A stretch of 20,974 nt of DNA from a virus. A model generated the notes under the pieces. It searched no databases, was not told the origin of the DNA, and worked only from the letters and a program-made list of their open reading frames with translations. Below, in pieces: positions 1-18,900 of this stretch. The position numbers and the translations under genes are program-made. Position 1 is the stretch's first letter. Each line of letters opens with the position of its first letter. The stretch spans positions 1 through 20,974 of IMG/VR virus record IMGVR_UViG_3300029448_000540. One strand, 5' to 3'.

Positions 1-189
1 ATACAAGGTGGTCCAACAGTTCTAGCAGCAGCGGACGTTGACGGTAGTGAGACTGAGATCTCTGGTAAGATTGGACTTAAGCATAAAACTACTGACAATT
101 TAGCTTTATACACTGAGTTCAAAGGTATCACAAATGGAGATGAAGATAATAAGTACAACGTGAAAGCTGGAGCTAAGTATAGTTTCTAA
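1..189 (+). CDS. C-terminal fragment of a beta-barrel-like protein
   Basis: Only the last 62 codons are present; the gene begins before the window and ends with TAA at 187-189. The fragment has alternating polar and hydrophobic residues in strand-sized stretches (ISGKIGLKHKT, LALYTEFKGI, YNVKAGAKYSF) joined by short acidic turns (TNGDEDNK), and it ends in Phe. That pattern is typical of the last strands of outer-membrane beta-barrels, where a terminal aromatic residue is the assembly signal. A T7-like phage would normally carry the scaffold gene just upstream of the capsid gene, but T7 scaffolds are acidic and helical and this does not resemble one. Function is unknown; an envelope-modifying protein or a beta-rich virion protein are both possible. 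The stop codon overlaps the next start (TAATG). Confidence 0.6.
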   Translation: MQGGPTVLAAADVDGSETEISGKIGLKHKTTDNLALYTEFKGITNGDEDNKYNVKAGAKYSF

Positions 190-574: not shown

Positions 575-1949
575 ATGGCACATCAAAATAGTAACGAGCC
601 GTTAGCTGATTTAACGCGCCCCGGCTCGCTCAATGGTGCGGCTGATTCTAGAGCATTGCTACTCAAGCTGTTCTCTGGAGAGATGTTTAAAGGATTCCAG
701 AACAATGCAATAGCAAGGGATCTTGTGATGAAGCGTACCCTTAAAAATGGTCGCTCTTTACAGTTCATCTACACAGGTCGCACCAATGCCGAGTTCCATG
801 TCCCAGGTCAAAGTATCTTAGGGAACAGTGACGGCGCACCTCCAGTAGCCGAGAAGACAATAACTTGCGACGACCTCCTTATCAGTTCAGCCTTTGTGTA
901 TGAGCTAGATGAGACATTGACTTAAAATAATGGGTCAATTAAAATTGGAAGAATTGCTGGAACCCTTTAAAATGGCAATCAGCAGCCGAGCCTCTTACGC
1001 TTAAGAGGAAGGTTCAGAGACTAGGTGGTTTAGGAAGCGTCCTATGTAATACACCAATAGCATCCAACACCGAAAGGTGAAGATATAGTCCAAGCCCTTT
1101 GGAAACACTGGGATTTAGCATTATGAGTTGAGAGGAGAAATAAGTAAAAAAATCGGCTACGCTTTAGCTGAAAAATATGACCGCCTAATCTTTAGAGCTG
1201 TTACTCGTGGAGCAAGAGCTAAGTCTCCTGTTCAGAAGACTAACTTCGAAGAGCCAGGTGGAACACAGATTCGTGTAGGTACAACTACAAACGCATCTGA
1301 TGCATACTCAGCTACTGGAATAGTGAACGCATTTTATGATGCTGCAGCTGCTCTAGATGAGAAGGGTGTTTCTAGTGAGGGACGTGTAGGTGTTCTTAAC
1401 CCACGCCAGTACTATGAACTAATCCAACAGGTTGGTGAGAACGGTCTAGTTAACAGAGACTCACAAGGTTCATCCCGTCAGAAGGGTAATGGAATTGTGG
1501 AGATAGCTGGTATCAAGATCTACAAGTCAATGAACATTCCATTCTTCAGTCAGTACGGTACTAAGTATGGTACTGGTTCAGCTACTAACCCTGGTGTTAC
1601 CGATCCTGGTAATACTGGTGACTTCGTAGGTGAAGCACAGGAAGATGGACGTAACTCTGTTACAGGTATCAACAACGACTATGGTCAAGCATCTAACTTC
1701 GCTAACTCTTGTGGACTTATCTTCCAGAAAGAAGCTGCAGGTGTAGTGGAAGCAATGGGACCACAGGTCCAAGTAACGTCAGGTGATGTCTCCGTGATTT
1801 ATCAGGGTGATGTTATCCTTGGTCGCTTAGCAATGGGCGCAGACTACTTGAATCCAGCTGCCGCTGTTGAGCTTTATGCAGGTACTGCTACAGCACCAGC
1901 TCAGTTTGGTACTGTTCAATCTGCAACCAACAACGCTGGTTATCAGTAA
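575..1949 (+). CDS. Major capsid protein (T7 gp10-like), interrupted by a group I intron
   Basis: The coding sequence is join(575..922, 1119..1949), giving 392 aa that assemble the icosahedral head shell. Exon 1 (116 aa) starts MAHQNSNEPLADLTRPG and covers the N-arm and the E-loop region (about residues 50-85), ending SSAFVYELDETLT. Exon 2 resumes with HYELRGEISKKIGYALAEK, which forms the long spine helix of the HK97 fold. T7-like marine capsids read continuously through this point (DETLxHYELRGEIS), so the join restores the expected protein exactly and in frame. Unspliced RNA would meet TAA (923-925) at the first intron codon and yield only a 116-aa fragment. The apparent TTG-initiated ORF at 1128 is an artefact of starting inside exon 2. 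The length is slightly above T7 gp10A (about 345 aa) and near the cyanopodovirus size. A strong terminator follows at 1970-2000. Confidence 0.93.
923..1118 (+). ncRNA. Group I self-splicing intron, IA-like, ORF-less, 196 nt
   Basis: The core elements are visible: P (AATTGCTGG, 952-960), Q (CAGCAGCCGAG, 980-990), R (GTTCAGAGACTA, 1012-1023) and S (AAGATATAGTCC, about 1080-1091). Helices drawn by hand are: P1, exon ATTGACT (916-922) with GGTCAAT (933-939), placing the obligatory U-G pair at the 5' splice site; P3, TTGGA (945-949) with TCCAA (1063-1067); P4, TGCTGG (955-960) with TCAGCA (979-984); P6a, CCTCTTA (991-997) with TAAGAGG (1002-1008); P7, GACTA (1019-1023) with TAGTC (1086-1090); P8, CACC-GAAA-GGTG (1068-1079); and P10, ATAATG (927-932) with exon 2 CATTAT (1119-1124). 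Extra hairpins between P7 and P3 (GGTG/CACC around TAGGA-AGCG-TCCTA, 1024-1055) match the P7.1/P7.2 hallmark of subgroup IA. The intron ends in G1118 (omega-G). It has no homing-endonuclease ORF. Confidence 0.96.
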
Positions 1950-2009: not shown

Positions 2010-2657
2010 ATGAACCCCAATTTCAAGTATATCGATACAGAACTATCCGCAATAAATACAGTATTGGGGACGATAGGTCAGGCTCCAATTCAGAAAGTAG
2101 ATCTAGAGAACCCAGAGGTCAACCTTATCTACAACATCTTACAAGAAGCAATCATAGATGTATTAGGTGAAGGTTGGTCTTTTAATAAAGAGGATCACAT
2201 AACACTTACACCTGATTCAAATGGATACATAACAGTTCCAAACAACGCACTACACTATGACATAACTGATGGTCAACGTCTAAGAAGTAAAGATGTAACC
2301 GTTAGGAATGGTAGACTATATGACAAGGTAGATCATACAGATGTATTTACTAGTGATGTAGATGTAGATGTTGTATGGTTATTTGGTTTTGATTTGGACC
2401 TAGCTAATAAAGCTCAAGTAGGAGGATCAATACCACAAGTATTCAAGAGATATATAACAGCTAAAGCAAGTACTAGAGCAGCTACTCAGCTATTAACTAA
2501 TGCTGATTTAACTAAAATCTTAGCTAGTCAGGAAGCAATCTCTAGATCAATTTGTATGGAGTATGAATGTAATCAAGGTGATCATAGTTTCTTTGGATTA
2601 CAGCACAACACTTCTTACGATTCATATCAACCTTATAAAGCATTATCTAGAATCTAA
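2010..2657 (+). CDS. Tail tubular protein A (T7 gp11-like adaptor)
   Basis: The 215-aa product matches the T7 gp11 family, which forms the dodecameric ring between portal and nozzle. The N-terminus (FKYIDTELSAINTVLGTIGQ) is the conserved opening of cyanophage and T7-like tail tube A proteins. The segment ILQEAIIDVLGEGWSFN and the C-terminal helical part (KRYITAKASTRAATQ) also fit the family, as does the length (T7 gp11 is 196 aa). I chose ATG 2010 because the in-frame ATG at 1968 would translate through the terminator hairpin and add a low-complexity extension (PFFLFTK). No Shine-Dalgarno sequence precedes the start (ACAAAACTTATG). The stop overlaps the next start as TAATG. Confidence 0.92.
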   Translation: MNPNFKYIDTELSAINTVLGTIGQAPIQKVDLENPEVNLIYNILQEAIIDVLGEGWSFNKEDHITLTPDSNGYITVPNNALHYDITDGQRLRSKDVTVRNGRLYDKVDHTDVFTSDVDVDVVWLFGFDLDLANKAQVGGSIPQVFKRYITAKASTRAATQLLTNADLTKILASQEAISRSICMEYECNQGDHSFFGLQHNTSYDSYQPYKALSRI

Positions 2658-5600
2658 TGGCAGGAATTACTCAGACAGTACCAAATTATATACAAGGCAT
2701 CTCACAACAACCTGATGAATTGATGTTACCAGGACAGGTTAAGGATGCTTTGAATGTTCTACCTAATATCACAAAAGGATTAGAGAAGAGACCAGGGTCT
2801 GAGTTTCTTAAGACTTTGACTTTATGTGAGAATGTATTAGAAGAAGGGAAGTATTTTATAATTGATCAGGATGATAAGTACATAGGCAGAGTCAGTAAGA
2901 CAGGTAAGATTCAAGTTTGGGATCTTAGTGGAAATGAATGTGAGGTGATGCAAGGTACACGTTTAGATGGTAAAAGTCTTTATGAAGATGTACCTTTATC
3001 ACCAGAGTTTTATACCTATAAAGTACAAGCTATAAATATAACAAATGGAGGTAGTGGTTACACCAGTACACCTACAGTGACTATTACTAATACATCTGGT
3101 TCTACGGGGTCTGGAGCTACTGCTACTGCAGTTGTTGCAAGCGGTGTTATTACTAGTATTAATATTACTAATAACGGTAGTGGTTATTCAGCTGGAGCTT
3201 CAGTAGCTATCAGTGGTGGTGGTGGAAGTAATGGTGCAGCTACAGCAACAATAGGAAATCTACCTTATCTCGAACATTCTAATTCTGACTCTATCCAAGC
3301 TCTCACTATTAATGACTATACGTTTTTCACTAACCGTGAAAGATCTACAAAGTTAAGCGATGAAGTAAAAGACACATTAGCTGATGATTCAAGAATATCT
3401 GGTGATGGTGTTGAAAGCTTTGCTCAAACTGAAGGTGGTAAAAACTGGGTTAATTATGCTGATAATATAAGACCTTATGAAGCATTCGTAGAATTAAAAT
3501 CAATTGCTTATAACAAACAATATGCTTTAAATTTCCACCAACCAGGTGGAGTAAACTTAGAGCAACATGTAGCTACAAAGTTAAGTGTTGAATGGATCGG
3601 TGACAATAGCAGTACTTATAGTGAAGGTGGTACAGATAAAACAACAGCAACAGTTGATTGGACTAAGAAGGAAGATCTGAAAACTAAAGATGGAACTTGT
3701 AAGTTTACAGCTAGAGAAATTTATACAATCAACCCAACAGGAAAAACTGTTTACAATCAAGAAGAAGGTGATAGACGAAAGTATGGAGAGTTACTTTTAA
3801 ATCCCACAGCTAATAGAACATTAGAGACAAGTGGAGCTGATTATAATCCTCACCCTAATACTAGAGGTAATCAAAATAACCTACGTTTTGAATTAGAAAA
3901 TATAGGAACACCTGCAGCTGTTGGTGATAAATATGAATGCATGTATCAGATAAATATTACTTTGATGCATGGTGGAGAAGGTTGGAGAAAAGGCGATAAC
4001 TTCATTGTCGTTATGGAAGGTACTAACTATAGAGTCACAGTTGAAGAACATGAAACTGTTGTAACTCAGGCTAGTATTGCAGCTGTTAGACCAGCCCCTA
4101 CCTCAGCACAAGGTGATGCAATAATTACAGCAGATCAAATACTAGATAGCATTACAGCTGAGTTTGATCGTAGAGCTAATTTAAAAGATACAACAAACAC
4201 ACCTGCTAAGTCTGGTCCTGGTTGGCCATGGACAGTTAAAAAAATAGGCAATGGTTTATATATAAGATTCTATGATGCAGCACATATAGATGGCTTAACT
4301 AACGGTCTTACGTCTGTACCATTCTCTGTTACTGCTCCTAACAAATCACTATTCAATATTCTCACATCAGAAATTGATGATGTTGGAGACTTACCATCTC
4401 AATGTAGGCATGGTTATGTAGTGAAAGTTTTAAATAGTAATAGTGAGAAAGATGATTATTACTTACAATTTAAATCTAACAATGCTCCTGCAGATGGAGA
4501 TGGAGTATGGGAAGAATGTCCAAAGCCAGGTATTAGAACACAGTTTGCAGCTGATACTATGCCTCATCAGCTTGTCCAATCAGGCACTGGATCGAGTGCA
4601 AAGTTTTATCTAGAAACTATCCCATGGGAAGCAAGGTTAGTAGGTGATGATACAACCAACCCTAAACCTAGTTTCAGTTCTAATCATGCAATTCAAAACA
4701 TAGCTTTCTATAGGAATCGATTAGCACTGCTATCTAACGATAGTGTTATCTTGTCTCAATCTGGTGACTTCTTTAACTTCTGGGCTAAGACTGGAATGAC
4801 TATCAGCCCAGCTGATTGTATAGATGTCTCAGTTAGTTCTACTACTCCAGCCACACTGTTAGATGCTATAGCTGTACAACGTGGACTATTGATGTTCAGC
4901 AAAGAGCAGCAATTCATGCTCACAACTGATAACGATGTACTCGCACCTGATACAGCTAAGATTGCAAACATATCTACCTACTCATATAACTCATTAGTTA
5001 AACCTTTTTCATTAGGTACGTCTGTTGGTTTTACCAATAACAACAATACTAATACTAGGTTTATGGAGATGACTAGGATAGCAGTAGGTCAACCTCCTGA
5101 CATATTAGAGCAAAGTAAACTAGTCCAATCACTACTACCTCCTACTATAGATACAGTTGCTGAATCTAAAGAACAAGGGTTAGCCCTATTCGGTACTAGT
5201 GATGCTTCAGATATAGTCTATGGTTATAAATGGTTTAACAGTGGAGAAAAGAGATTATTATCATCTTGGTTTAAATGGCAATTACACGGTAATGTTATTT
5301 ATCATGCGATTATAGATGATGTTTACTACGCTGTTATTAGGACAGATGATTTCTCTGTACAACTAGAGAAGATAGATATTAAGAATCAACCAAAGATAAC
5401 TACTGTTAGTGGTGACTATATGATCCACTTAGATAATATGACACTGGTAACAGGTATGTCATATTCATCATCAACAAAGAAAACAACTATAACTATACCT
5501 AGTAACTTTACTGTTACAGGTGCTAAACGGTTTGCAATCTTTGCAACTGCAGGGACTATGGCAGGTCAAACAGAATACCCAGAAATAACTAACGGTAGTA

Positions 5601-6022
5601 CAACTACTGTATCTGGTGACTGGTCTAGCTCAACAGTCTATGCAGGTTATATCTATAAAATGAAAGTACAGTTTCCTCAAAACTTCTTTAAGCAAGCTGA
5701 TGGTGAGAATGTCAGATCAGATACCAGAGGTTCTACTATTGTCCATAGAGTCAACTTAAACTTTGGTTCAATCGGATATTTCCAAACAAGATTAGAAAGG
5801 AAGTGTAGACCAGATTGGATACATGACTATGAGATAGCAGCTAACTGCAATTTTGAATCTAACTGTTTTGGGATATTACCTAATGCTAGAGAGACAGTAC
5901 CAATTTATTCAAGGAATGAGGATTATAGATTATATCTAGAATCTAATCATACCTCCCCTTGCACATTACATTCATCCAGTTGGGAAGGTGATTACAACGA
6001 AAAGTATTACAAAAAAGTCTAA
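2657..6022 (+). CDS. Tail tubular protein B (T7 gp12-like nozzle)
   Basis: The 1121-aa protein opens with GITQTVPNYIQGISQQPDE, the signature start of gp12-like nozzle proteins, followed by LPNITKGLEKRPGSEF. The middle contains the conserved NIAFYRNRLALLSNDSVILS and DCIDVSVSS regions typical of this beta-propeller family. The nozzle is hexameric, closes the tail tip and helps anchor fibers. At 1121 aa it is much longer than T7 gp12 (794 aa). Part of the excess is a Gly/Ser/Thr-rich cassette at residues 126-198 (GGSGY repeats), inserted into the N-terminal region and shared with the long fiber downstream. The start overlaps the gp11-like stop (TAATG), implying coupled translation; the 3' end overlaps the next gene by 35 nt. 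Confidence 0.92.
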   Translation: MAGITQTVPNYIQGISQQPDELMLPGQVKDALNVLPNITKGLEKRPGSEFLKTLTLCENVLEEGKYFIIDQDDKYIGRVSKTGKIQVWDLSGNECEVMQGTRLDGKSLYEDVPLSPEFYTYKVQAINITNGGSGYTSTPTVTITNTSGSTGSGATATAVVASGVITSINITNNGSGYSAGASVAISGGGGSNGAATATIGNLPYLEHSNSDSIQALTINDYTFFTNRERSTKLSDEVKDTLADDSRISGDGVESFAQTEGGKNWVNYADNIRPYEAFVELKSIAYNKQYALNFHQPGGVNLEQHVATKLSVEWIGDNSSTYSEGGTDKTTATVDWTKKEDLKTKDGTCKFTAREIYTINPTGKTVYNQEEGDRRKYGELLLNPTANRTLETSGADYNPHPNTRGNQNNLRFELENIGTPAAVGDKYECMYQINITLMHGGEGWRKGDNFIVVMEGTNYRVTVEEHETVVTQASIAAVRPAPTSAQGDAIITADQILDSITAEFDRRANLKDTTNTPAKSGPGWPWTVKKIGNGLYIRFYDAAHIDGLTNGLTSVPFSVTAPNKSLFNILTSEIDDVGDLPSQCRHGYVVKVLNSNSEKDDYYLQFKSNNAPADGDGVWEECPKPGIRTQFAADTMPHQLVQSGTGSSAKFYLETIPWEARLVGDDTTNPKPSFSSNHAIQNIAFYRNRLALLSNDSVILSQSGDFFNFWAKTGMTISPADCIDVSVSSTTPATLLDAIAVQRGLLMFSKEQQFMLTTDNDVLAPDTAKIANISTYSYNSLVKPFSLGTSVGFTNNNNTNTRFMEMTRIAVGQPPDILEQSKLVQSLLPPTIDTVAESKEQGLALFGTSDASDIVYGYKWFNSGEKRLLSSWFKWQLHGNVIYHAIIDDVYYAVIRTDDFSVQLEKIDIKNQPKITTVSGDYMIHLDNMTLVTGMSYSSSTKKTTITIPSNFTVTGAKRFAIFATAGTMAGQTEYPEITNGSTTTVSGDWSSSTVYAGYIYKMKVQFPQNFFKQADGENVRSDTRGSTIVHRVNLNFGSIGYFQTRLERKCRPDWIHDYEIAANCNFESNCFGILPNARETVPIYSRNEDYRLYLESNHTSPCTLHSSSWEGDYNEKYYKKV
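3032..3250 (+). repeat. GGSGY beta cassette inside tail protein B
   Basis: The cassette encodes two degenerate half-repeats of about 36 aa: INITNGGSGYTSTPTVTITN with a Ser/Gly/Ala-rich tail, then [20 protein letters not shown] with GGGGSNGAAATA. The same two-half module, with the same order of elements, recurs in the long fiber at 15511-15729. It reads as a small Gly-rich beta domain, probably surface exposed. T7 gp12 lacks such a segment, so I infer a domain insertion. Confidence 0.8.
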
Positions 6023-14628: not shown

Positions 14629-17600
14629 ATGACGAATTCATTTCAACCAGGCAATGCTATAAGAGCAGATGCTCTGAACGAAAACTTTGACCAAGTACTT
14701 CTAGCAATACAAGAATTAGAAGGTAACGTTACAAACGCATCAGGGACCATGAAAGGTCCACAAGGAGATAGAGGGTTACAAGGTCAAACAGGTGCAACAG
14801 GTGCAACTGGGTCTACAGGTCCAACAGGACCAACTGGTGCAACTGGTGCTACAGGTGCAACTGGTTCAAAAGGTGATACCGGTGCTCAAGGTCCAATAGG
14901 TCCAGCGGGTCCAACAGGAGCAACCGGCTCTACTGGTCCTACTGGTCTAAAAGGTGACATGGGGACAGGTTTATTACTTAAAGGTTCCTATGCTTACACA
15001 GGTGCTCCAAATACATCTACAGCTGGCAGTAGTCCTAGTCAAGGTGATTTATGGAAGTCTAGTAATAATGATTGCTGGGCTTATGATGGGACAGCTTGGA
15101 CTAATGTAGGAGCCATCGCAGGTACTACTGGAGCACAAGGTGCGACAGGTGCGGCGGGAGCTACAGGATCTACAGGTGCTCAGGGAGCTACTGGAGCTAC
15201 AGGTGCTCAAGGAGCTACAGGTCAAACAGGTGCTCAAGGTCCAGCTGGTGTTCAAGGTCCAAAAGGAGATACTGGAGCTACTGGTACAACAGGAGCTACT
15301 GGTCCTCAAGGTGCTACTGGTTTACAAGGTCCAGCTGGTACAGCTACCACTATGGAGTCGCTTACTAATGTAAGTATTTCTAATGCATCTGCTTTAGATA
15401 GACTTGAATATGATGGTACTAACTGGATTAATAGAGGACATAATGAAGGTGATACTAATTATACGGTTTTAGCTAACGTAGCTGCTATACCTAATTTTAC
15501 TATAGCTAGTATATCCGTAACTAATGGTGGTTCTGGATATTCAAGTGCACCTACAGTAACTATCACAAATACCTCTGGAAGTGCAGGATCAGGATGTGCA
15601 GCGACAGCAGTATTATCAGGTAATACAGTACAAAGCGTAACCATAACTAATGCTGGTTCTGGTTACTCAGCTGGTGCAACTATTGCCTTCTCAGGAGGTG
15701 GTGGTACAGGAGCTGCAGCAACAGCTACTACTAATCCAACAAACGGTACAGCAGTAGAGGTAACAGATTCATCTGGTATTCAATCGTTTACTCCTTTGTC
15801 TGGAATGCCATCAGGCTTTACAGGCGATTCAGGTTTATCAGTAAGAATACAGTATGATACGAGTGGTACTGATACATGGAAGTGGAAGAGATATTTCGCT
15901 AATACTCCAGAAACTAGATATGCATCAATAGGTGGTGAGACATTTACAGGTGCAGTTAATCTTGATGAGAACTTAACCGTAAAAGACGGTAAGCAAGTAC
16001 GAATCAGTGAAGAGTCTGGAAATGGAAGTAACTTTATAGCTTTAAAAGCACCTGCATCATTAGGTGCAAGTGTTACCTATCAACTACCTGTTGATGGTAC
16101 AAATAACCAAATCCTTAAAACTGATGGTGCTGGTACTTTATCTTTTGCAAGTGCATCAGATTTAACTCAGTCTGGTATTACTCAATTAAGAGAGGACTCA
16201 TCTCCTCAACTAGGTGGTGATTTAGATGTTAATGCTAACTCAATTATCACTGCTACAGGTAGTAATGCGAGTATAAACATCACTCCACACGGTACAGGTA
16301 ACGTTGTACTTAGTGGTCAGAAGTTCCCTAACACCGACGGTAGCAACGCTCAACTACTACAGACTGATGGTAACAATAATCTAAGTTGGGTAGCTGGTTA
16401 CACCATAGGTACAGATCTTCTTGATGAAGATAATATGGCTAGTAACAGTGATGCGAAAGTAGCTAGTCAACAATCTATTAAAGCCTATGTAGATGCTAAT
16501 GATTTGTCTTTGATTGATGAAGACAATATGGCTACTGATAGTGCTGCACGTCCTCCTAGTCAACAGTCAGTTAAAGCTTATGTAGATGCTAAAAGCTATC
16601 CTGCTAATTTAGGTAACGCTGCATCAGGTACAGCTTTAACAGTTACATCTAGTTCAGGTACAAACACTGATCTTCCAGCTGCCACAACTTCAGCTTGGGG
16701 TGTGATGACAGATGATGATAAGACAAAGTTAGATGGTATTGAAACAGCAGCCACAGCTGACCAGACTGATGCAGAAATAAAAACTGCATACGAGAATAAC
16801 AGTAATACAAATGCATATACTGATGCAGAGAAAACTAAGTTATCTGGAATAGCTACTTCAGCTAATAACTACACACACCCTAACCATAGTGGTGAGGTTA
16901 CATCTACTGCAGATGGAGCTACAGTTATTACTGATGATACTGTTGATGAAGCTAATTTAAAGATTAGTAATGCTGGTAGTAATGGACAGTTCTTATCTAA
17001 ACAATCTGGTAATACAGGTGGTTTAACTTGGGCTACACCAACTGATACTACATATACAGCTGGTACAGGTATATCTATTAGTGGTACGACTATTTCAGCA
17101 GGTGCTTTAGCATTAACGACAGTACAGACAGCTGCAAACCAATCGGCTCATCTAGCACTAACTGCACAAGAAGGTGATGTAGTTGTTAGATCTGACGAGA
17201 ACAAATCATATGTTCATAACGGTGGTTCAGCTGGTTCAATGGCTGATTACACATTACTTGCTACACCTACAGATGCTGTATTAAGTGTTAATGGAAATAC
17301 AGGTGCTATCTCAGCTGCACAAATAGCTGGAGCAGTTGAAGCAGCGAGTGATTCTAATACTTTCACTGATGCAGATCATACGAAGCTAAATGGTATTGAG
17401 GCTAGTGCAACTGCTGATCAATCAGCTTCTGAAATTGTTGCTCTTGTAGCTGATCAAACTATTGCTCCTTCAACAATTGATATGGAGGACAATGAAAAGA
17501 TCAAGCTTGGAGCTGGGGATGATTTAGAGATCTACCATGATGGAACTAATTCATTTATTAATAACACTACAGGCAGATTAAGGTTTGAAACTGACAGTTA

Positions 17601-18900
17601 TGGCTACGGTTTCTATAAAGCCACTGGAACTGAATGGTTAGCTAAATTGGATGTTGACGGAGCCGTAGAACTCTATTACGACGGCGTTAAGAAGTTTGAG
17701 ACAAGTTCAACGGGTGTCACTGTAAATGGTGCCGCTGTTGTTGGTGGAAATATAGAAATAAATACAGATGCTTATTTAAAAATTGGTGCATCAAATGATC
17801 TCCAGATCTATCACAATGGAACGGATTCTTTCATCGATAACCAAGGAGCTAACGCAGGTAATTTTTATATAAGAGGTGCAGGTGCTGATGTAGATAAATG
17901 GTTAATTATTCAAGCTAAAAGTGGTGAAGATTCTATTGTCTGTAAAAGAGATGCTGAAGTTTATCTTGCATATGATGGCGTTAAGAAGTTAGAGACGACA
18001 AGTTCGGGCGTTTCTGTAACTGGTGCTTTAGGTTTTGCAAATACAGGTCAATGTATATCTTTAGGTGATAATAAAGAATTACATTTCGGAACTGGTGATG
18101 ATCTCAAGATCTACCATTCAGGCAGTTTATCAATGATTGATAATACTGAAGGTAATTTACATATAAGAAACCAAGCAACTAGTGGTCAAATAAAAATACA
18201 ACCCAAGAGTGGTGAAGATGGTATTAATGTAATTCAAGATGGAGCCGTAGAACTCTATTACGACAACGCACGTAAATTATCTACTCATCAATATGGTGTA
18301 GACATAGATGGGAATTTATACATAGGTGATTCAGGAGAAGGTAAACTTCTTATTGGTGCTGGTGAAGATCTCCAGCTCTGGCATGATGGCTCTAATTCAT
18401 ACCTTCAAAATGCAACTGGTGAATTACATGTCCAAAGTAATACTTTAAAACTAACTGATTATAATTCATCGCATACTTATTTCAGAGGTTTAGCAGGTAA
18501 TACAGCTGAACTCTATTACGACAACAGTAAGAAGCTTGAGACGACGAGTTCAGGCATTACGGTAACTGGAACGGTATCAGACAGCAAAGGCAACGTACGT
18601 AAAATACCTTATCAAGACGAAACAGGTTCTACACATACATTAATTGCTACTGATTCAGATAAAGTTGTTGGTGCTAATAATGGGGTCACGATCCCTGCAA
18701 GCGTCCTAGGTGTGGGTGATGCAGTCACTATTATTTGTCATAGCAGTTCTGATATAACTTTAACGCAAGGTAGTGGTTTGACTTTATACAACACAGCAGA
18801 TGGAACTACGGGAAATCGCACACTTGCTGCGAGGGGAATGGCGACTATCTATTTTGTATCAGCAACTATTGCTTACATCTCAGGTGCGGGGTTAACTTAA
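14629..18900 (+). CDS. Long collagen-like, modular tail fiber
   Basis: The 1423-aa protein opens [20 protein letters not shown], matching the end of the T7 fiber attachment domain (GSAIRAxDLNxNF). Two collagen-like Gly-X-Y blocks follow: residues about 43-111 (23 triplets) and 165-236 (24 triplets), separated by a compact aromatic module ([19 protein letters not shown]). Next come a GGSGY cassette (295-367), a tandem 31-aa repeat (DEDNM..QQS.KAYVD, 597-658), LDGIE.xATADQ coil motifs, and four copies of a roughly 75-aa module ([23 protein letters not shown], 958-1314). The C-terminal 110 residues ([24 protein letters not shown]) look like a trimerisation or tip domain. The Gly-X-Y blocks imply a trimeric shaft. 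It is likely a receptor-binding fiber; the receptor is unknown. Confidence 0.85.
14755..15336 (+). repeat. Collagen-like Gly-X-Y repeat blocks in the long fiber
   Basis: Two runs of uninterrupted Gly-X-Y triplets, dominated by GAT, GPT, GST and GAQ, flank a roughly 50-aa globular spacer (about 14965-15120). The DNA is a degenerate 9-nt repeat (GGT-GCA-ACA and relatives), prone to slippage and length change. Spurious ORFs in other frames over this stretch are by-products of the periodicity. Confidence 0.9.
15511..15729 (+). repeat. GGSGY beta cassette inside the long fiber
   Basis: The encoded module ([20 protein letters not shown], a Ser/Gly/Ala-rich link, [31 protein letters not shown]) has the same two halves as the cassette in tail protein B at 3032-3250. 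At DNA level the copies are clearly diverged, so the sharing is not recent. Confidence 0.8.
16417..16602 (+). repeat. Tandem 93-bp repeat (31 aa, DEDNM motif)
   Basis: Two adjacent 93-bp units (16417-16509 and 16510-16602) encode [20 protein letters not shown] + IKAYVDAND and [20 protein letters not shown] + [10 protein letters not shown] recall this motif recurring in fibers of marine phages. It is predicted helical and may form a trimeric coil between beta segments. Confidence 0.85.
17500..18570 (+). repeat. Four diverged copies of a 75-aa fiber module
   Basis: The copies span 17500-17730, 17776-18024, 18079-18312 and 18346-18570. Each starts with a GxGDDLxIYHDG-like motif and ends with an [25 protein letters not shown] motif, with a variable middle. 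The coding DNA of the conserved ends stays very similar between copies: the 24 bases at 17659-17682 and 18241-18264 are identical, as are shorter stretches at the other copies. The middles differ freely. Confidence 0.88.

Follow-up and report, generated by a model that had tools for sequence, protein, structure and literature searches.

The group I introns described so far in phages offer several points of comparison for the locus considered here. In the mycobacteriophage LittleE, splicing of an intron from the capsid gene was demonstrated by RT-PCR and N-terminal protein sequencing (PMC3706429), and a group I intron in the capsid subunit gene of the lactococcal phage Tuc2009 is cited in the same paper. 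Among cyanophages, the psbA intron of S-PM2 has its target site recognized by the adjacent free-standing endonuclease F-CphI, in a case of collaborative homing (PMC6083498), and the splicing of the S-PM2d psbA intron has been reported to be light-dependent (PMC5931967). The paper on S-SRM01 likewise discusses one psbA intron (PMC8557907). We observed three apparent group I introns in that gene of this freshwater cyanophage (L088, MW015081.1; ~633–1540, 2018–2226 and 2480–2690 of the locus). An endonuclease ORF is present in one of them and absent from the other two, and the psbA annotation of the record is limited to two pieces. Further, DNA polymerase introns are known from T7-like phages, one of which is a freshwater cyanophage (PMC3428280), and the huge Jug phages have essential genes interrupted by numerous short group I introns of about 206 nt, with splicing of 37 out of 76 supported by metatranscriptomes (PMC12363816).

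Identification of a group I intron in the capsid gene

The DNA that we analyzed, hereafter the window, is a 20,974-base IMG/VR fragment of an uncultured virus. On its plus strand, the first part of a major capsid gene (exon 1, 575–922, 116 codons) ends in ...YELDETLT, and its ORF is closed by a TAA at 923–925 that constitutes the first codon of an insert. The remainder (exon 2, 1119–1949, 276 codons plus stop) starts with HYELRGEIS. The frame joined across 922/1119 translates into a stop-free capsid protein of 392 aa, the gene being interrupted at codon 116/117, and the same codons run continuously across this junction in an intron-free allele (L001). In tblastn comparisons, the joined capsid is 80.8% identical to that of Synechococcus phage S-SBP1 and 74–81% identical to those of cultured P-SSP7-type Synechococcus and Prochlorococcus podoviruses. 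These relatives point to a marine T7-like podovirus and, as the record is a 20,974-base IMG/VR fragment, it is from them that a cyanobacterial host is read.

The insert (923–1118, plus strand) is 196 nt long, opens with the in-frame TAA and closes with a terminal G1118. Its longest open stretch in any frame is 45 codons, and no endonuclease ORF of the kind that marks a homing intron lies within it. The Rfam group I model RF00028 matches 913–1112 over its entire length (model positions 1–253 of 253) with 70.2 bits (cut-off 50 bits) and an E-value of 2.9e-16; this is the sole Rfam match in the 20,974-base window and the one match in the whole record. All pairs of the pseudoknotted P3–P7 core, along with P4–P6 and P8, are present, and the P7.1 and P7.2 stems that typify subgroup IA are found between P7 and P3. 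By all its sequence-level features the insert is a group I intron with predicted catalytic activity. The minimum free energy by itself is mildly unusual (z −2.08), and this z-score was excluded from the evidence as weak.

The original prediction, made from the letters of the window, holds up well in these respects. Its 196-nt intron at 923–1118 with exon ends DETLT and HYELRGEIS is exact to the base and yields the 392-aa joined capsid, the absence of an ORF agrees with the 45-codon maximum, and the covariance-model search that it had suggested as a check returned the full-length RF00028 match given above. Each element that it had named, namely P1 with its U-G pair, P3, P4, P6a, P7, P8 with a GAAA loop, P10 and the terminal G, lies where it had been placed; the subgroup IA-type P7.1 and P7.2 stems are both present with compensatory changes among 13 introns (see below), and the assignment of the host gene to a T7-like marine capsid is borne out by the 74–81% identity to the cultured podoviruses.

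No intron is present in the capsids of cultured cyanopodoviruses among the matches listed by tblastn, and every introned T7-like capsid that we found comes from an uncultured IMG/VR contig. An intron in the P-SSP2 capsid gene, hinted at by two tblastn pieces (P-SSP2/P-SSP3), was rejected, as that gene is a single open CDS with no RF00028 match and its insertion is coding. A mention of a group I intron for PA-SR01 proved irrelevant, being merely an endonuclease annotation.

Covariation within the intron and with its exons

We aligned 13 introns, each extended by 20 exon bases at both ends, without reference to structure, and scored 57 named pairs. Across the 13 introns 96.5% of these are kept; however, since these very sequences contributed to the reading of the named structure, it is the controls rather than this raw percentage that carry weight. 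Nineteen pairs are changed on both sides as against 8.8 in column shuffles (0 of 500 shuffles reach 19), and when the partners are slid by 1–3 columns the number of doubly changed pairs drops to 0–3. Doubly changed cells, including those in P1 and P10, number 54 versus 15 in the shuffles.

The helices that contact the exons are the most telling as regards the splice sites. P1 (917–938, plus strand, as are all helices below) is formed by exon bases 917–922 with 933–938, and the U922–G933 wobble at the 5' splice site is found in 13/13 introns, as is the terminal G1118. Within P1, the Leu codon of the exon and the guide base covary, TTG going with A and CTN with G (U-A in 5/13, C-G in 8/13). The 5' strand of P10 (927–932) pairs with exon 2 positions 1119–1124, and three of its 6 bp show compensatory exon-intron changes: Tyr TAT is matched by an intron A and TAC by a G, with a single exception (L082), and in L102, where the exon Tyr has become Phe (TTT), a U-to-A change in the intron restores the match. 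That the intron keeps pace with coding changes in the capsid would not be expected unless splicing across 922/1119 were of consequence.

In the core, P3 (945–1067; 945–949 with 1063–1067) and P7 (1019–1090; 1019–1023 with 1086–1090) are invariant in 13/13. Also invariant is P4 (954–985; 954–959 with 980–985), which encloses P5 (963–964 and 966–967 with 971–972 and 974–975); the outer pairs of P5 do not vary and its innermost pair (967/971) is formed in 3/13. P6 (986–987/1011–1012, within 986–1012) is followed by P6a (991–997/1002–1008), in which 4 of 7 pairs show changes on both sides. Compensatory changes are likewise seen in two pairs of P7.1 (1024–1027/1052–1055), three pairs of P7.2 (1031–1035/1040–1044) and 3 of 4 pairs of P8 (1068–1079; 1068–1071 with 1076–1079, capped by the GAAA loop). 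P9 (1095–1112; 1095–1097 with 1110–1112) is the least supported helix, with 79.5% of its cells paired and two compensatory pairs.

Seven insertion sites in the capsid gene

The same insertion does occur in capsid genes of relatives, where the original prediction had suggested looking for it: in pattern scans, 19 further IMG/VR contigs proved to be interrupted by an intron at codon 116/117, and RF00028 recognizes 20 of the 20 records, window included. These introns are 195–217 nt long, which leaves no room for an endonuclease, and each opens with an in-frame TAA or TGA. Between them, the capsids that host these introns span close relatives of that in the window and a separate group near S-CBP1 and S-CBP3, and contigs of near-genome length (40.4 and 43.6 kb) are among the 20. 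Intron-free alleles of this site are commoner in IMG/VR by at least about nine times (at least 120 versus 14 introned ones with the same exon-2 pattern).

The view of a single insertion nevertheless had to be corrected. Scanning for the shared 3' core where it immediately precedes other conserved capsid codons, and mapping the capsids by tblastn, we obtained a total of 67 introns in 59 contigs at seven sites, with two introns in eight of the contigs. In the numbering of the window capsid, these are site A at 35/36 (between LFSG and EMFKG; 14 contigs), F at 73/74 (2 contigs), B, the site of the window, at 116/117 (20 contigs), G at 212/213 (2 contigs), C at 342/343 (7 contigs), E at about 343/344 (1 contig) and D at 346/347 (21 contigs). 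RF00028 matches 35 of the 39 records with introns at sites other than B; the remaining four (L230, L249, L254 and L255) have the 3' pattern ~80–115 bases from the locus end, so that the intron is cut down to its 3' portion there. At the junctions read for A, C, D, E, F and G, too, the exon ends in U and the intron in G. For site B, the lack of an ORF was read from the sequence itself; for the others, it was judged by the insert length (about 190–230 nt). Sites A, B, G, C/E and D fall in protein stretches of above-average conservation (74th–98th percentile), whereas F does not. With introns in no fewer than 58 uncultured virus sequences besides the window, at seven sites, we term the T7-like capsid gene a hot spot that group I introns have repeatedly entered or left. 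As ORF finding splits the introned capsids, that of the window included, surveys using the capsid as a marker may misread them.

Two individual contigs deserve mention. The only site-E intron, in L243 (IMGVR_UViG_2667527327_000001), lies within the Tyr codon of VYQGD, and the form of this identifier, unlike the metagenome ones, possibly indicates a genome or single-cell project as its source. For a phage with an intron at site D (L263, G035:C1:20596-20837), RF00028 finds another match ~5 kb upstream, flanked by ORFs of a gene other than the capsid.

Patchy distribution and lateral transfer

In a tree of 50 capsids, the presence of the site-B intron entails at least 11 gains or losses, all of them forced by well-supported branches, and a single clade of intron-bearing capsids is rejected (p-AU 4e-56). 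Over the 13 introns the mean identity is 85% versus 67% for the exon DNA. The introns of L084 and L085 are identical at 205/205 positions, with exons that are 80.8% identical and third codon positions that are 63.5% identical. The capsids of L083 and L262 are 99.6% identical over the compared residues (exon DNA 94–100% by stretch), yet one of the two has the intron at site B and the other has introns at A and F. The excess of intron-free alleles at site B does not tell gain from loss. We regard the patchy distribution and the transfer of introns between lineages as established.

Gene neighborhood and the search for a mobility agent

The 20 site-B records were searched with the Pfam models HNH_3, GIY-YIG, Endonuclease_7 and HNH, and 18 records with other capsid introns with the first three of these. 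HNH_3 and GIY-YIG had no match in any record searched, and no homing endonuclease linked to the capsid gene was recovered by Pfam from these mostly partial contigs, or seen in the neighboring genes that we read (portal, scaffold, psbA where present, small ORFs and tail tubes). The only matches are HNH and endonuclease VII-like genes, seen in a small number of records and far from the capsid gene. Homologs of the HNH gene are found in many cultured cyanopodoviruses with no capsid intron, and in G015 the endonuclease VII-like gene lies just behind the apparent end of the DNA polymerase ORF. A search of GTDB genomes for a cellular source gave no exact match to the intron core. With no homing endonuclease seen in the introns or around them, the likeliest drivers of their movement are an endonuclease acting in trans, free-standing and encoded elsewhere or in a co-infecting phage, or else ordinary allele replacement during co-infection.

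The neighborhood has other features of note. A small secreted-looking protein of about 116–133 aa, with a signal-peptide-like start and an AGAKYSF or VGVKYNF end, is encoded upstream of the capsid in the window (1–189) and in L084 (3288–3689), L085 (82–444) and L224 (3255–3605); it resembles outer-membrane or porin-like proteins. Glutamine-II riboswitch aptamers (RF01704), unexpected in a late structural region, sit between psbA and the capsid gene in L082 (626–681), L084 (3147–3198) and P-SSP2 (L086, 1143–1196). Farther along the window, a Gly-rich stretch of ~70 residues (NGGSGY...VTITNTSGS...GSGYSAGA) is common to a tail tube B-like protein (2657–6022) and a collagen-like fibre protein with Gly-X-Thr repeats (14629–18900), which suggests a shuffled domain.

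Proposed mechanism and alternatives

We favor, with a probability of about 95%, the reading that this is a putatively self-splicing intron, of a seven-site family moving by DNA-level recombination, whose removal restores the capsid frame. In the folded transcript, UUGACU of exon 1 would pair with the guide sequence of the intron, guanosine would attack after U922, and P10 would hold exon 2 such that joining after G1118 restores the capsid frame. As the intron opens with TAA, RNA left unspliced would yield only a 116-residue fragment. The family would have entered the capsid gene at the seven sites and would spread among lineages via DNA-level recombination. The fold, the splice sites as marked by exon-intron covariation, and the shared insertion sites are secure as features of the sequences; that splicing takes place in vivo, how efficient it is and what mobilizes the introns are our inferences.

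A virion needs capsid protein in hundreds of copies; hence, an intron in this gene must either be spliced out with high efficiency or hold production back. A wider scenario, to which we give a low probability, is that the capsid gene of marine cyanophage-type T7-like podoviruses is a general landing zone in which endonuclease-free group I introns are kept mobile by a trans-acting nuclease of other phages, that the presence of the intron decides which alleles survive co-infection, and that splicing may gate capsid production with the light or energy state of the host, as reported for psbA. Slightly less probable is that the intron is primarily regulatory, with splicing efficiency gating capsid output in response to, e.g., light or the energy state of the host: its closest known DNA relatives are the cyanophage psbA introns, and that of S-PM2d is reported to splice light-dependently (PMC5931967), but its scattered occurrence in phages that are nearly identical makes the intron look dispensable. 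The psbA analogy is a ground for testing regulation and not evidence for it in the capsid intron.

That the insert is a splicing-dead relic, with the gene disrupted and the lineage defective or supplied with capsid otherwise, appears very improbable. Splicing of the capsid intron does rest on prediction, but both exons are open and no core helix is broken, the guide sequence changes along with the exon codons, and the arrangement is kept in 20 contigs, including those of 40.4 and 43.6 kb. We give scant credence to ribosomal bypass or frameshifting over an untranslated insert in the manner of T4 gene 60, which would accommodate an in-frame stop as the first codon but would need none of the pseudoknotted group I core, 5' U-G, terminal G, P10 and covariation, exactly the features of a ribozyme, and as little to an assembly artefact or chimera, conceivable for a contig from an uncultured virus but at odds with the presence of the insert at this codon in a further 19 contigs, drawn from different datasets, and with the correlated exon and intron changes.

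With 67 capsid introns at seven sites and no linked endonuclease, the spread of ORF-less introns becomes a testable question, and whether cyanophages time their late genes through splicing is a second one.

Comparison with known systems

A capsid intron in a phage is not new as such, given the experimental demonstration of splicing in LittleE and the case of Tuc2009, which qualifies the original prediction. In the open literature that we searched, no T7-like or marine cyanophage is described as having a capsid intron, and a marine T7-like hot spot of laterally moving, endonuclease-free introns appears undescribed there. LittleE shares with the window an interrupted major capsid gene, an exon ending in U and an intron ending in G. 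However, it is a single case of an 819-bp insertion with a LAGLIDADG reading frame in an actinobacterial siphovirus, whereas the T7-like capsid introns are about 200 nt long, ORF-less, and found at seven sites in many lineages. Tuc2009, going by its citation, differs in being a siphovirus of a Gram-positive host. The DNA polymerase introns of T7-like phages occupy another host gene, and that of Pf-WMP3 has an HNH endonuclease. The Jug introns, in turn, belong to gut jumbo phages with genomes rich in endonucleases and interrupt terL, nrdD and polymerase genes.

The psbA introns of S-PM2 and S-SRM01 come closest. Like the intron in the window, they are small, ORF-less, of cyanophage origin and have in-frame stop codons, and they are 72–75% identical to it in DNA over about 82% of its length, the best match spanning most of the window intron in the phage collection being 75%. 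They differ in residing in psbA and in myoviruses, and S-PM2 has F-CphI, while no partner was found for the capsid introns. Our interest lies in the spread of mobile, endonuclease-free introns over seven sites of one essential gene, for which the collaborative homing of the S-PM2 psbA intron (PMC6083498) is the nearest known precedent of spread without an internal endonuclease.
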